In this document: piece by piece, positions 58,667 through 63,139 of the stretch
How positions within the stretch are numbered: position 1 is the first letter of the stretch
Layout: each line of letters starts with the position of its first letter
DNA from: Ralstonia soli
GTDB lineage: Bacteria; Pseudomonadota; Gammaproteobacteria; Burkholderiales; Burkholderiaceae
Length of the DNA stretch: 64,000 nt
Reading direction: 5' to 3'
Assembly (NCBI RefSeq): GCF_023955655.1
Contig: NZ_JAMXHT010000001.1
Location: forward strand, 620,001-684,000
Translations under genes and position numbers: made by a program
The notes under the pieces: generated by a model
Seen by the model: only the letters and a program-made list of their open reading frames with translations
Told to the model about the DNA's origin: nothing
Databases searched by the model: none

Positions 58667-59950
58667 ATGAAGAAGACCTTACTGGCCACCGCGATCGCCA
58701 TGGGATTGGGGGTCTCTGGCGTTGCACTGGCCGATATCGGGAACGTTGCGTCTGGCCCGGGTAACAAAACCCAGACCAACACAGCGACCATTACCAACAC
58801 CAGTACCGACACAGACACCACCACCACGAATACCAATAACTCCAACCAGCACAACAACCAAAGCCAGGGAAATAACCGCGACAACGCTGGATGGGCGAAT
58901 GCCGCGGGTTATGGCACCGCTGCTGCCAATAATGGCGGCGTTTCCACTGCGACATTCAGCAATGCCTTCAACACCAGCAAGGCGATTGCCATCTCCAGGC
59001 TGGAAGGCACGGTTACCAACCTCAGTGTCTCGGGCATCGGCAATGTCGCCACCAATAACGGCGGCACGGCCAATGGCGGCAGTGGTGGACGCGGCGGTAC
59101 GGGTTATGGCGGCGTTGGCATGGGTGGCAACGGCGGCAATGGCGGCGCGGGCGGCGCGGGCGGCAGCGGCGGCTCGGGCGGCAGCTCCGGCAATGTCACG
59201 CACGGTAGCGCGACCAACGGCGGCGCCACGGCAGGCGATGGCGCCAATGGCGGCAACGCCACGGGCAACGCCGGCAATGGCGGCGCCGGCGGCAGCTCCG
59301 GCACGCTGTCGGCCAGCCTCGGGGCAGGCCTTGGCGGTTCGGCTGGCAGCGCCAGCGCTGCGGCCGGCGGCCATGGCGGCAGCGGCGGCGGAGCTGGCGC
59401 CAGCGGTGGCGATGCCAATCGCCACAGTGGCAGCGGGTCGGCAACCGGCGGCACGGGCGCAGCAGCAGGCGGCAACGGTGCGGCTGGAGGCGCCGGTACG
59501 GCTGGCACTTCGACGGCTTCCGGCGGCGCAGGCACCGGCACGAGCGCGGCAACCGGCACCAGCACGGGCGGTGCAGGCGCGGCGGGCGGTGCTGCCACCA
59601 ACGTGGCCGGCAACGGCGGTGCTGGCGGCGCAGCCGCCAACGGCAGCGCAACCAATGGCTCAGCCTCGTCAACCGCCGGCAACGGTGCGGTGGGCGCGAT
59701 GGGCGCCATGGGCGCGGCGGGTGGTGCAGGCGGCACGGGCAACGGCGGTGTCGGCAACGGTGCTGTTGGCGGTGCAGGCGGTGCAGGCGGCGCAGTGATG
59801 GTGGATGCGGGCACGTTCAACATGTCCAATGCCATGACCAGCGTCGGCCAGTCGGCTGCCGGGATCATGATTGCGAACCAGAACAGTGGCTTCGCTTCGC
59901 TGATCCAGCAAAGTGTCAACGTGCAAGCCAACCTGAACGTCGGCCACTGA
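58667..59950 (+). CDS. Secreted Gly/Ala/Ser/Asn-rich low-complexity protein
   Basis: A 427-residue protein of extreme composition. Residues 1-22 form a signal peptide ending VALA. Residues 30-75 are rich in Asn, Thr and Gln. Residues 130-375 are mainly Gly, Ala, Ser and Asn in GGNGG- and GGAGG-type runs. The last 50 residues are less biased and end SLIQQSVNVQANLNV. There is no known enzyme or adhesin domain. As the first gene before a C39 peptidase and near a Fap-like outer-membrane channel, it is a good candidate for the main secreted, possibly fibre-forming, substrate. A GGAG site precedes the ATG at 58667. Confidence 0.78.
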   Translation: MKKTLLATAIAMGLGVSGVALADIGNVASGPGNKTQTNTATITNTSTDTDTTTTNTNNSNQHNNQSQGNNRDNAGWANAAGYGTAAANNGGVSTATFSNAFNTSKAIAISRLEGTVTNLSVSGIGNVATNNGGTANGGSGGRGGTGYGGVGMGGNGGNGGAGGAGGSGGSGGSSGNVTHGSATNGGATAGDGANGGNATGNAGNGGAGGSSGTLSASLGAGLGGSAGSASAAAGGHGGSGGGAGASGGDANRHSGSGSATGGTGAAAGGNGAAGGAGTAGTSTASGGAGTGTSAATGTSTGGAGAAGGAATNVAGNGGAGGAAANGSATNGSASSTAGNGAVGAMGAMGAAGGAGGTGNGGVGNGAVGGAGGAGGAVMVDAGTFNMSNAMTSVGQSAAGIMIANQNSGFASLIQQSVNVQANLNVGH

Positions 59951-60077
59951 GCGGGCATCGGGCTTGAGCGGGGAAGCGTCGCTGCCGGTGCCATGTCGTT
60001 GTGGCATGCAGGCAGCGGTTGACCGGCCGGGCTGCGTTGGCGGCTCGGCCCCAGTTGGAGCGTAGAGGAGACATTCG

Positions 60078-60536
60078 ATGCGATCCGACAGAAGAACCAC
60101 AGCAGGACGGATGGCATGGCCGGTGGCGTCACTGCTGGCGTGCGGTCTGGCAGTGTGGCCGGCGGCAGCAGCGATGGCGGCGGACGACGCGCCGATCGCA
60201 GACAGTGCGCAGACAACCCACACGGAAGCGGTGCGTCCCCCGGTCGCCGCAGCCGTGTCGGTGCCTGCGTTTGTCCCCAGGCTGGGTCATGCGGTGGGTG
60301 CAGACACGCTCGAGCGCTATCGCGGCGGCACGCAGGATCTCTACCAGACCGTCAACGATGCGCGCCTGTCGGGCACCGTGAGCGACAACGCCGCCGTGAA
60401 TGTGGCGACGGGGTCGAACATCGTGCGCGACGGCTCGCTCACCAATGCCGCCGGGATCCCCACGGTCATCCAGAACACGGGTGCAAACGTGCTGATCCAG
60501 AACGCGACCATCGTCAACGTGCAGTTCCGGCCCTGA
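60078..60536 (+). CDS. Small exported protein with a double-glycine motif (first)
   Basis: A 152-residue protein with no named family that I recognise. A Sec signal peptide is likely (VASLLACGLAVWPAAAAMA). A Pro/Ala/Val linker leads to V73-G-A-D-T-L-E-R-Y-R-G83-G84, a motif like a bacteriocin double-glycine leader end. The remaining 68 residues are rich in Asn, Val and Thr and end VIQNTGANVLIQN then VNVQF. The C39 peptidase encoded 20 bases downstream is the obvious candidate to cut after Gly84. An AGAGGAGAC site precedes the ATG. Confidence 0.72.
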   Translation: MRSDRRTTAGRMAWPVASLLACGLAVWPAAAAMAADDAPIADSAQTTHTEAVRPPVAAAVSVPAFVPRLGHAVGADTLERYRGGTQDLYQTVNDARLSGTVSDNAAVNVATGSNIVRDGSLTNAAGIPTVIQNTGANVLIQNATIVNVQFRP

Positions 60537-60555
60537 GTGCATGAAGGATGCGTTG

Positions 60556-61236
60556 ATGCGCAAGACGTGCGGTGCATTGCTGATGGCACTGGTGTGCGGG
60601 CCTGTGCTGGCGGGCGAGATCGACATGCTCGGGTCGGGCGGCGGCACATATGCCGTGCCCGTGACGAGCATGAAGGCGGCCCGCTACCTGCGCACCGTGC
60701 ATCAGCGGTTTGACTTCAGTTGCGGGTCGGCCGCCGTAGCGACGCTGCTCACTTACCAGTACGGCTATGCGGTGAGCGAGCAGGTGGTGTTCCAGGCCAT
60801 GTACACGCATGGCAACCAGGAGAAGATCCGGCGAGAGGGTTTTTCGCTGCTCGACATCAAACGCTACCTGGAGTCGCAGGGCTTTGCCGCCGACGGTTTC
60901 GAGCAGCCGCTGGATGCATTGAAGGACGCCCATCTGCCGGCCATCGTGCTGTTGAGCGAGAACGGCTATCACCACTTCGTGGTGGTCAAGGGCGTGCAGG
61001 AAGGGCGTGTGCTGGTGGGCGATCCGGCCATGGGCACACGCGCCATCCCGCGTGCGAGTTTCGAGAGCATGTGGGACAACCATTTGCTGTTCGTCGTCCA
61101 CAACCACGAGGCGGGGGCGACGTTCAACGCGGCATCGGATTGGCGCGTTGCGCCGCGCGCGCCGCTGGAGGAAGGGATGGATCGCAGCGGGCTGGGGAAC
61201 ATCGTCGTCCCCAAGCATGGCCCGAGCGATTTTTGA
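60556..61236 (+). CDS. Sec-exported C39 family peptidase (FapD-like)
   Basis: A 226-residue protein made of a signal peptide (CGALLMALVCGPVLA) and a stand-alone C39 papain-like domain. Catalytic candidates are Cys56 in DFSCGSAAVATLL, His139 or His140 in YHHFVVV, and Asp156 in VGDPAMG. C39 peptidases cut after double-glycine motifs. Usually they are fused to ABC exporters, but here the signal peptide puts the enzyme in the periplasm, as for FapD of the Pseudomonas Fap system. I chose the ATG at 60556 because AGGA lies 7 bases upstream; an ATG at 60541 is in frame. Confidence 0.85.
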   Translation: MRKTCGALLMALVCGPVLAGEIDMLGSGGGTYAVPVTSMKAARYLRTVHQRFDFSCGSAAVATLLTYQYGYAVSEQVVFQAMYTHGNQEKIRREGFSLLDIKRYLESQGFAADGFEQPLDALKDAHLPAIVLLSENGYHHFVVVKGVQEGRVLVGDPAMGTRAIPRASFESMWDNHLLFVVHNHEAGATFNAASDWRVAPRAPLEEGMDRSGLGNIVVPKHGPSDF

Positions 61237-61266
61237 ACGCAGTCCGGTGGCATGCAGGAGGGCATC

Positions 61267-61794
61267 ATGAGGCGGTTTGGCAAGGCTGCGTGGGCCATCG
61301 GTTGGCTCGCGCTGACGGCGGCCGGGCACGCGTGCGGCGCCGGCATGGATGGCAACCCCGTCCACGCATGGCAGGCCGTGTCCGAAGATAAGCTCGACGA
61401 TATGCGTGGCGGGTTTGATGTGCCGTCCGCCGCGGGGCTGCGTATCTCGTTCGGCATCGATCGCGCGGTGTATATCAACGGCGATCTGGTGGCGAGCGCG
61501 TCGGTCAATGTTCCCGATGTGGCGCGCATGACGGCCGCGCAGGCGCAGCAACTCTCCAACGTCGTGAACACGGTCAACCTGGTGCAGAACGGGCCGAACA
61601 ATGCCGCGCCGCCGGACATTGCGGCGGGCACCGCTGCGGCGGCCACCATCATTCAGAACACCCTGAACAATCAGACGCTGCAGGCCGTGACGACCATCAA
61701 CGCGGCCGTCAACAGCCTGCCGCAGTTCCGCCAGATGAATCTTGCCAACGTGCTCCAGGGAGCGCTTGCCAACGTCGCCACCGTGCTGCACTGA
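61267..61794 (+). CDS. Small exported protein with a double-glycine motif (second)
   Basis: A 175-residue protein of no named family. A signal peptide (AAWAIGWLALTAAGHACGA) precedes V38-S-E-D-K-L-D-D-M-R-G48-G49, nearly the same motif as in the other small protein of the cluster. The part after the double glycine starts FDVPSAAGLRISFGID. It then becomes Ala/Asn/Gln-rich with NTVNLVQNG and IIQNTLNNQTLQ, suggesting a repetitive beta or amyloid-prone region. A strong CAGGAGGGC site sets the ATG at 61267, 30 bases after the peptidase stop. Confidence 0.72.
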   Translation: MRRFGKAAWAIGWLALTAAGHACGAGMDGNPVHAWQAVSEDKLDDMRGGFDVPSAAGLRISFGIDRAVYINGDLVASASVNVPDVARMTAAQAQQLSNVVNTVNLVQNGPNNAAPPDIAAGTAAAATIIQNTLNNQTLQAVTTINAAVNSLPQFRQMNLANVLQGALANVATVLH

Positions 61795-61816
61795 AGGTGC
61801 CGACGCGGCTTCGCAC

Positions 61817-63139
61817 TCAGAACTGGATCGGCACGCGCAGCGTCACCGTCAGGTCGGGCGTGTCGCGCGTGAGGCCGGCGCCCACCGACAGGTTCATCGT
61901 CATTCTGGGTGAGAACCGGTACGAATAGCCGACCAGCAGCGTGCCCAGGATGGTGCGCACCGAGCCCGGCACGCGCTGGCCGTTCTGCTTGGTCGGCCCG
62001 ATGATGCTCTGGTCGTAGCCGATCGAGAACGATGCCTTCTCGTTCAGTGCCAGCCCCATGCCGAAGTTCAGGCCGATGATGTCGCCGGCCTTCACGTTGC
62101 CCAGAAACTGCTTCGAGCCATCGACCAGGTTCAGGCTCACGTCCTTGCGCTCGAAGTTGTGCAGATAACTGACGCTGCCGAAGAACACCGCCGGGTCGGT
62201 CGGGAACAGCCACGTCAGGCCCGGCTGCACGGCGAAGAAGCCTGAGCCCGTGGGTTGCTGCAATGGCAGGCCGGTGCCGGTGGTGTTGCTTACACAGCGC
62301 GTTACGCAGTCGGTGGTGACTTCGAACGGATCTTTGCCCGTGCGTGTCTTGAAGCGCATCCAGCCGATGTAGAACGGCTTGTCGACGCCGCCCGCGTTGA
62401 GCTGGTAGCGCGCCGTCAGTTCCACGTCGCCGATGCCGTGGCCGTGCGAGCTGAAGGCGTTGTCCGTCGCGGTGCCCGTGAAGATCTCGCGGCTGACGGT
62501 GTCGCTGGTGCTGTAGACGTACGGCACGCGCGCTTCCAGTTCCCAGCGCTTGGCCAGGCCGTAGCGCACGGCCAGCGTGCTGGTGAGCGTGGTGGTCTTC
62601 ACCTGCCGTACGTCGATCAGCCCGATCAGCAGCGCGGGGATGATGGTGTAGCCCACCAGCGCCACGCGGTCGGACGACGAATACGCCATCTGCAACGACG
62701 GCTCGACGACGAACTTGCCGGGCGGCGTGAGCGCGCTGGGCTCATCAAAGATCTGCGCGATGCGCGGCGGCTGGTCGGGCGGCTCCGGCGGCTTGCCGAC
62801 GGGCGTGTTGCCCGGCTGCTCGTTCTGCGCGAGCTGCGGCACGTCGGCGCCTGCGCCCGGCGCACCCGCACCGCGCACGGTATCGAGCTGGCGCTCGCTC
62901 ATGCCGAGCGCGCGCCGCATGCTGCGCAAATGGGCTTCCTGCTGCTGGATCGAGCGCTTGAGTTCCTGCAGGCGCGCCTGCGCTTCGGCAAGCTGCCGCT
63001 GGATGGCTTCCAGGCTGGGTGGTTTGTCGTCCACCGGCTCGTTGGTCTGCGCGAAGACCGGCCCGCTGCACAGCAGCAGGCATGCGCACGCAACCGCATG
63101 CATTGATCCGCACTGCGGCCACCATGGCAAAGGCGTCAT
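61817..63139 (-). CDS. Outer-membrane beta-barrel with N-terminal coiled coil (FapF-like)
   Basis: A 440-residue protein. Residues 1-30 form a signal peptide ending VFA. Residues 42-88 form a strong coiled coil (LEAIQRQLAEAQARLQELKR and on). A Pro-rich linker follows. Residues 135-440 alternate in beta strands and end in a C-terminal aromatic residue (VPIQF), as in outer-membrane barrels. This order (coil, linker, barrel) matches FapF, the trimeric channel of the Pseudomonas Fap amyloid system. The gene is convergent with the small double-glycine protein gene, 22 bases apart, unlike the single Fap operon. A CGGGGGA site precedes the ATG. Confidence 0.78.
   Translation of the reverse strand: MTPLPWWPQCGSMHAVACACLLLCSGPVFAQTNEPVDDKPPSLEAIQRQLAEAQARLQELKRSIQQQEAHLRSMRRALGMSERQLDTVRGAGAPGAGADVPQLAQNEQPGNTPVGKPPEPPDQPPRIAQIFDEPSALTPPGKFVVEPSLQMAYSSSDRVALVGYTIIPALLIGLIDVRQVKTTTLTSTLAVRYGLAKRWELEARVPYVYSTSDTVSREIFTGTATDNAFSSHGHGIGDVELTARYQLNAGGVDKPFYIGWMRFKTRTGKDPFEVTTDCVTRCVSNTTGTGLPLQQPTGSGFFAVQPGLTWLFPTDPAVFFGSVSYLHNFERKDVSLNLVDGSKQFLGNVKAGDIIGLNFGMGLALNEKASFSIGYDQSIIGPTKQNGQRVPGSVRTILGTLLVGYSYRFSPRMTMNLSVGAGLTRDTPDLTVTLRVPIQF

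Follow-up and report, generated by a model that had tools for sequence, protein, structure and literature searches.

Gene content of the locus

The present analysis concerns a five-gene cluster in a 64,000-nucleotide stretch of the Ralstonia soli genome (assembly GCF_023955655.1, contig NZ_JAMXHT010000001.1, positions 620,001 to 684,000), the whole of which is called the window in what follows. Judged by its sequence, the cluster encodes a secretion system of the type known from the functional amyloid of Pseudomonas (Fap), and two of its small exported proteins, perhaps also its pore, bear what looks like the cut-site of a C39 peptidase, pointing to the target of the peptidase FapD. The five open reading frames (ORFs) that a preliminary description had placed between positions 58667 and 63139 are all found there (table 1), in a genome of 5.73 Mb on 31 contigs. 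Signal peptides were judged by eye throughout, and signal-peptide-like starts were recognized in all five products. Profile searches returned no family match above cut-off for P0001, P0002 and P0004, while P0002, P0004 and the P0001 tail each have one clear copy in the genome, the next matches having E ≥ 0.03. No sixth gene that could be FapA was seen in the cluster, no FapA profile search having been made. A promoter scan found none, terminator-like sites numbered 7 against 3.8 expected, and a search of plasmid DNA yielded one partial Cupriavidus match only.

Table 1. Genes and sequence features of the cluster, in window coordinates.
Feature	Position	Strand	Remarks
P0001, exported low-complexity (Gly/Ala/Ser/Asn/Thr) protein, candidate major secreted subunit	58667..59950	+	427 residues; 22-row alignment
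P0001, conserved N-terminal segment AFNTSKAIAISRLEGTVTNLSVSGIGNVATN	58964..59056	+	
P0001, conserved C-terminal tail (QN-x-G ... SLIQQ-VNVQAN)	59801..59947	+	
P0002, small exported protein, candidate minor subunit, possibly FapB-like	60078..60536	+	152 residues
P0002, double-glycine leader VGADTLERYRGG	60294..60329	+	residues 73-84
P0002, C-terminal motif IPTVIQNTGANVLIQNATIVNVQF	60456..60527	+	
P0003, exported C39 cysteine peptidase, FapD-type	60541..61236 (ORF)	+	likelier start 60556
P0004, small exported FapE-like protein	61252..61794 (ORF)	+	180 residues; likelier start 61267
P0004, double-glycine leader VSEDKLDDMRGG	61378..61413	+	residues 43-54
P0005, FapF-type outer-membrane pore with N-terminal coiled coil	61817..63139	- (convergent)	440 residues
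P0005, leader-like site MSERQLDTVRGA	62867..62902	-	residues 80-91, end of coiled coil

The FapF-type pore and the FapD-type peptidase

The preliminary description had likened the barrel protein to FapF and the C39 protein to FapD, and profile searches uphold both assignments. P0005 matches the NCBIfam FapF profile with E of 2e-47 over residues 41-440, and P0003 matches both the NCBIfam FapD profile (E 1.5e-39) and PF03412 (Peptidase_C39; E 1.5e-23). However, the equivalog cut-offs are far from reached, with 161.9 of 700 bits for P0005 and 135.6 of 330 bits for P0003. P0003 is the only PF03412 match in the genome, where a single protein matches the FapF profile at E ≤ 1e-10. The best solved relatives of P0005 are FapF chains (E 1.5e-34 to 2.3e-33), and its AlphaFold model (mean predicted local distance difference test score, pLDDT, 67.6; predicted template modelling score, pTM, 0.60) has the expected coiled coil and barrel, namely a helix at residues 43-89 and 15 strand segments from residue 143 on. 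When this model was compared with the PDB, FapF chains took ranks 1-18 (template modelling, TM, score by target 0.75-0.79), and the COG4313 channel 4rl8 came next.

In P0003 the residues Gln55, Cys61, His145 and Asp161 (P0003 numbering) are present, so that the Cys-His-Asp triad is intact, and in a pattern-free alignment the Gln, Cys, His and Asp are conserved in 103/103 distinct peptidases of this branch and in 28/28 canonical ones. In canonical Fap, the C38A variant of FapD is reported to abolish FapC secretion (PMC5557850). A specificity pocket was also sought in FapD: many columns separate the two FapD groups, but assigning any of them to the P1 pocket would require a complex, and the idea was abandoned.

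Double-glycine leaders in the two small proteins

The P0002-type and FapE-like (P0004-type) proteins, which have no recognized domain in common, carry the same kind of 12-residue leader, separated by a variable linker from a signal-peptide-like start. Its register is a hydrophobic residue at −12, Leu at −7, often a hydrophobic residue at −4, usually Arg at −3 and Gly-Gly at −2/−1. The Gly-Gly leader was found in 114/114 FapE-like proteins (107 by pattern and 7 placed by reading; the 114 are 117 rows less L108, L146 and L153, which are cut by contig ends), whereas among the P0002-type proteins 110/116 end in Gly-Gly and 2/116 in Gly-Ala. The 116 and 117 rows include some genomes twice (e.g. L052, L075) and reduce to 81 and 67 distinct 12-mers, or 60 and 54 clusters at 75%.

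Pairwise identity, averaged per column, amounts to 0.10-0.19 in the linker and reaches 0.93-0.96 at −7 and 0.97-1.0 at −2/−1. Part of this conservation is selected, because the locating pattern admitted only L/M/V/I at −7, G at −2 and G/A/S at −1. Positions outside the selection are also conserved, with identities of 0.41 at −12 in both families and of 0.59 and 1.0 at −3; at −4 the identity is just 0.14-0.20, the residue being hydrophobic in 60/81 and 58/67 distinct leaders (L207 was left out of the P0002 profile). In pattern-free alignments, the 14 most conserved columns include the L, R, G and G of the FapE-like leader, and the L and the first G of the P0002-type leader. As a background, the leader motif occurs in 13/163 other signal-peptide-like ORFs of the fetched loci, these being mechanical ORFs that come in part from overlapping loci.

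The consensus of C39 leaders has been given as Leu at −12, Glu at −8 and Leu at −7, followed by GG, GA or GS (PMC6363468). The leaders of both small proteins fit this register except at −8, which is mostly not Glu. The hydrophobic −12, the Leu at −7 and a GG or, more rarely, GA ending are found together, as in C39 substrates, with a C39 peptidase encoded nearby in 57 of the 58 loci with sufficient flanking sequence described below. As a separate observation, the FapE-like proteins of L032-L035, L068, L069, L072 and L073 have long Ala/Ser/Gly-rich insertions before the C-terminal motif, and some of them also a very long stretch ahead of the leader.

The corresponding site in canonical FapE and in the pore

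In profile-profile comparisons with hhalign, each controlled by 36-40 column shuffles, the P0004-type leader together with the first strand aligned with canonical FapE with E of 3.3e-7 and a probability of 93, and 0/39 shuffles scored as well. The leader register is present in 26/26 canonical FapE proteins, with L/M at −7, G at −2 and K/R/H at −1; these comprise 11 of the 13 family loci (L043 and L051 yielded no canonical FapE) and 15 wider loci that match the FapE profile, L208-L210 not being used as canonical FapE loci. In the L196 protein the correct leader is the second listed match, LADDELSDMHGKF, and not the first. This count alone proves little, because the search also filtered for K/R/H at −1 and four of the proteins (L187, L189, L193, L196) were first noticed through the motif. 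More telling are features that were not selected, namely Asp at −10 in 19/21 distinct sequences, Glu at −8 in 15/21 and Arg at −3 in 16/21, and the position of the site directly ahead of the first strand. Homology of the FapE-like proteins to FapE beyond the first strand was considered and rejected (E 0.015, probability 3).

The N-terminus of FapE has been reported as absent in mass spectrometry (PMC5557850). In several FapE ORFs of family f15, which are taken as Pseudomonas and in which FapF is mostly above the equivalog cut-off, the site ends near residue 40-50; therefore the gap seen by mass spectrometry is longer, reaching beyond the leader site, yet compatible with it.

A looser version of the motif was recognized at the end of the coiled coil of the pore, where 92/110 window-type FapF proteins match L/M/I at −7 and R-G at −3/−2, and where the residue at −1 is G or A in 51/63 distinct sites. 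In a 24-row alignment made for another purpose, L85 and R89 of P0005 are nearly invariant, and in the model the helix ends at residue 89 and is followed by a low-confidence linker. The presence of GG/GA in FapF has been noted previously (PMC5557850, PMC5135000). The pore site is the least certain of the three.

The low-complexity subunit and the C-terminal motifs

P0001 consists of a conserved N-terminal segment, a Gly-rich middle part and a conserved tail, with 29% Gly overall and 42% in residues 131-378. The preliminary description of a Gly-rich substrate thus holds for P0001 but does not extend to every wider relative, some of them having 6-9% Gly: in L198, L202 and L205, the protein beside the C39 gene is instead rich in Asn, Asp and Ser. 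A P0001-like tail is clear in L197, L198, L199, L201 and L211, looser in L202 and L205, and different in L200 and L204, and no P0001-like gene was seen among those listed for L203, L206 and L207. Since relatives low in Gly still carry the tail, the tail is kept more widely than glycine, though not everywhere. The Gly-rich protein was dropped as a clue in its own right, and no fold is claimed for it, because its structure prediction failed (pLDDT 34).

Some of the C-terminal parts of the exported proteins resemble one another. The P0001 tail aligned with the P0002 C-terminus (E 2.4e-5; 0/40 shuffles as good) and the latter with the C-terminus of the FapE-like proteins (E 7.9e-5; 0/36). The match of the P0002 core to canonical FapB is weak (E 9.4e-4, probability 22; 0/40 shuffles as good), too weak for P0002 to be taken as a plain FapB.

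Some loci depart from the common arrangement of the subunits. The P0002 leaders of L198, L202 and L205, which end in G-R, coincide with a bulk subunit that is not Gly-rich. In L202:1588-5768 the C39 and FapE-like genes are surrounded by two copies of a unit made up of the low-complexity subunit and the P0002-type protein, the leader of the latter ending S-G-R. The Gly-rich gene is duplicated in tandem in L036, L037, L038 and L087 (Paraburkholderia sp. C35), which resembles a pair of major and minor subunits.

A separate branch and its distribution

In an 84-row tree of FapF, the window kind (54 rows, support 99/97) and the canonical kind (28 rows, support 100/97) both form deep groups, although the tool warned of several long branches. 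The suggestion of a distinct branch of Fap-type secretion is thus borne out, the different extracellular material proposed along with it being hypothetical, and by both the profile cut-offs and the tree the encoded system, as read from sequence, is of the Fap type and lies outside canonical Fap.

Co-occurrence was determined in a sample of 150 genomes of the family. FapF of some kind is present in 68 of them, canonical-like in 48, window-like in 37 and of both kinds in 17, one of which, G037, has only a fragmentary canonical-like match. In Ralstonia the window kind occurs in each of the 14 genomes listed, in 7 of them alongside the canonical kind. The P0002-type gene and the P0001 tail, expected from the preliminary description to accompany the barrel gene, are each present in 35 of the 150 genomes, which are identical for the two and all belong to the 37 with window-type FapF. 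Neither is found in the remaining 113 genomes, of which 31 carry canonical FapF alone. In the two genomes that have window-type FapF but neither of these features (G131, G069), FapF lies less than 900 bases from a contig end.

Of 447 relatives, 80 loci were named, and 58 of these have more than 6.4 kb on each side of FapF. The P0002-type gene is found in 58/58 of the latter, and the C39 and FapE-like genes in 57/58 each. A gene with the P0001 tail is found in 58/58, in 39 by a strict tail pattern and in 19 more by a looser pattern and reading of upstream ORFs. The exception, L107, has the Gly-rich/P0002 pair several kb off and no C39 match in the stretch examined; the same arrangement is seen in L142, a betaproteobacterial metagenome-assembled genome, as in this Undibacterium locus. 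The convergent orientation of the channel gene, which had been presented as a character of the cluster, is confirmed in the Ralstonia locus but is not the rule, FapF being opposite to the FapE-like gene in 15/57 loci and on the same strand in 42/57; it is a local variant.

The named loci belong to Burkholderiaceae, Oxalobacteraceae, an unplaced betaproteobacterium and several genera of Lysobacterales, and the 11 in which the pore is 81-91% identical to P0005 are labelled Ralstonia (9) or only Burkholderiaceae (2). This sister version of the Fap system is thus carried by Ralstonia and many of its relatives from soil and water, among them the laboratory strain Cupriavidus metallidurans CH34, in which the module lies on NC_007974.2 (locus L072). 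Two further kinds of loci were noted. At L208 (G437:C1:2004899-2018867) a second FapF of this branch has no FapD match in its vicinity, while the genome carries a complete module as well. L209 and L210 have a third, very distant pair of C39 and FapF-like genes, which falls in neither main branch of the tree.

Searches of an open-access library brought up no account of this branch among the records listed. However, FapD and FapF were earlier found to belong to larger families, with 1594 and 217 profile matches of which 70 and 68 were correct (Dueholm 2013, PMC3792158), and fapD and fapF homologues were reported together in further phyla (PMC6173800), so that relatives of this branch had already been glimpsed.

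Proposed mechanism and alternatives

From these observations a scheme may be proposed, which we regard as probable with some reserve, in which this branch of Fap-type secretion, as encoded by the cluster, matures its minor subunits, and perhaps its pore, by double-glycine cleavage in the periplasm. All products would enter the periplasm by Sec. Both minor subunits would then be matured in two steps, by signal peptidase and by the C39 peptidase, which would bind the leader at −12, −7 and the mostly hydrophobic −4 and cut after Gly-Gly, freeing mature cores of approximately 68 residues (P0002) and approximately 126 residues (FapE-like protein). Once cut, these cores may leave by way of the pore and, at the cell surface, initiate or cap the assembly of the low-complexity subunit, and a cut in the pore itself, between the coiled coil and the plug region, may alter its gating. 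Cleavage would thus be a licence step coupling secretion to assembly, with an equivalent step on FapE, at its Gly-Lys/Arg site, in canonical Fap.

The broader generalization has in our judgement an even chance of being correct. It would make the FapD family periplasmic peptidases for double-glycine leaders, with a single code (hydrophobic −12, Leu −7, Gly −2) borne by the FapE-like protein, by the first small subunit and, in the present branch, by the pore as well, Lys/Arg taking position −1 in the canonical systems. FapE and up to three proteins of this cluster would then be FapD targets, in a broad class of Sec-plus-C39 systems in which the bulk substrate is interchangeable behind a conserved tail.

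Besides the distance from the equivalog cut-offs and the selection built into the leader pattern and the FapE search, several observations speak against the scheme. Every C39 step in it is inferred. To our knowledge, Lys or Arg at P1 matches no known C39 cut, and the mature part of the FapE-like proteins finds no counterpart in canonical FapE past the region already mentioned. Even among the P0002-type proteins, three leaders (L198, L202, L205) keep the register but end R-G-R or S-G-R, and the L207 protein has no clear leader. The pore pattern is absent from 18/110 window-type pores, 5 or more of the 60 distinct sites in the list resemble chance matches within the coiled coil, −4 is often Lys (27/63 distinct sites), and the pattern is found in just 5/12 wider relatives and 9/28 canonical pores, in several cases plainly elsewhere in the protein. 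As to the assembled product, P0002 matches single Fap repeats weakly (E 1.2e-3; 1/40 shuffles as good), the P0001 tail more weakly still (E 6.4e-3; 3/40), there is no match between this tail and the FapE-like core (E 0.18; 8/36), and the predicted structure of P0001 is uninformative.

The alternative that survives best concerns the last step alone and is compatible with the leader mechanism. The product may not be amyloid, the Gly-rich domain forming instead a sheath, a gel or a polyglycine lattice exported by FapF-type pores, which is a possibility to be taken seriously even if we consider it somewhat doubtful. It would agree with the Gly content of residues 131-378 of P0001, with a middle domain that varies between taxa, with an N-terminal part that matches canonical FapC in the signal peptide only, and with the poor match of the tail to Fap repeats; the conserved tail, however, has Q/N spacing and matches the C-terminus of P0002.

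A second alternative denies cleavage itself: the C39 protein would be a non-cutting chaperone, the leaders being docking sites that bring the minor subunits to the pore. Transporters with C39-like domains that do not cut exist and have been considered for FapD (PMC6173800, PMC5135000), and docking would likewise conserve −12 and −7. This reading is nevertheless unlikely, because Cys, His and Asp are invariant in 103/103 rows of the branch, because Gly-Gly at −2/−1 equals Leu at −7 in conservation, which is due in part to the selecting pattern but is also seen in pattern-free alignments, and because the FapD Cys is required in canonical Fap (PMC5557850).

Two further alternatives carry little weight. 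Export of the bacteriocin or microcin kind, with P0002 as a small secreted peptide, is very improbable: a mature P0002 of about 68 residues behind a double-glycine leader would suit it, but P0002 begins in the manner of a Sec substrate, the C39 domain is exported as a protein of its own and the cluster contains no ATP-binding cassette (ABC) transporter, and P0002 co-occurs with the low-complexity protein and has a Q/N-rich C-terminal motif in common with it. Least probable of all is that the barrel takes up hydrophobic compounds as a COG4313-type channel and is a mere neighbour, as its match to Pfam Phenol_MetA_deg (E 9.9e-7) and the place of 4rl8 as next fold match might suggest, since FapF chains occupy ranks 1-18, the FapF profile covers residues 41-440 with E of 2e-47 and the pore co-occurs with the other cluster genes.

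Comparison with known systems

The proposed maturation of minor subunits by a periplasmic C39 peptidase can be set against four known systems. Curli (CsgA-G) follow a similar general plan, with Sec export, a dedicated outer-membrane pore and major and minor subunits with Q/N motifs, but are not known to have a C39 peptidase, and their pore is unrelated. The exporters of bacteriocins and quorum peptides (ComA, PCAT1, LahT) have in common with this cluster the C39 domain with its triad and leaders with a hydrophobic −12, Leu at −7 and a GG/GA end. The cluster differs in that its peptidase is stand-alone and exported instead of being fused to an ABC transporter, its substrates start with Sec-type signals, and its products look like subunits of a surface system.

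The Fil cluster of Acinetobacter (FilA, the C39 protein FilB, FilC) also places a C39 peptidase beside a FapF-like protein, and the FilB and FilC profiles match proteins of this cluster with E of 2.1e-35 and 3.6e-16. The Fil substrates are others, and the extra genes FilE and FilF are present. One Fil locus was read (L214:5500-8726, Acinetobacter baumannii CP040048.1), in which FilA adjoins a C39 match split over two ORFs and a FapF-like gene; its signal peptide is followed by SMDDAALSAATGQ, which resembles the leader register and ends in GQ. Literature searches on Fil, and on clusters of C39 and glycine-rich proteins, found nothing relevant among the records listed.

The closest system is Fap itself (fapABCDEF), with which the cluster has in common a FapF-type coiled-coil pore, an exported C39 peptidase, an exported low-complexity subunit and a small FapE-like protein with a leader that aligns in register. 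It differs in belonging to a separate deep branch of FapF, in lacking clear FapC repeats, in having P0002 in place of canonical FapB and a Gly-rich subunit, in the convergent pore gene of Ralstonia, and in a leader ending Gly-Gly rather than Gly-Lys/Arg. In canonical Fap, the target of FapD has been called unclear or yet to be determined (PMC5557850, PMC6173800), FapE and FapF are only ‘thought’ to be its targets (PMC12822426), and Fap proteins are said in this literature to be without canonical C39 sites. What is new here is a predicted Gly-Gly leader in two small subunits, with a looser version in many pores. Because this leader is legible in the sister branch, the site in canonical FapE becomes visible as its Gly-Lys/Arg version. 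The sister branch thus offers a candidate answer to the question of the FapD target that can be read in the sequence and makes the target testable, and it suggests that in Burkholderiales and Lysobacterales FapF-type pores export more kinds of low-complexity proteins than FapC.

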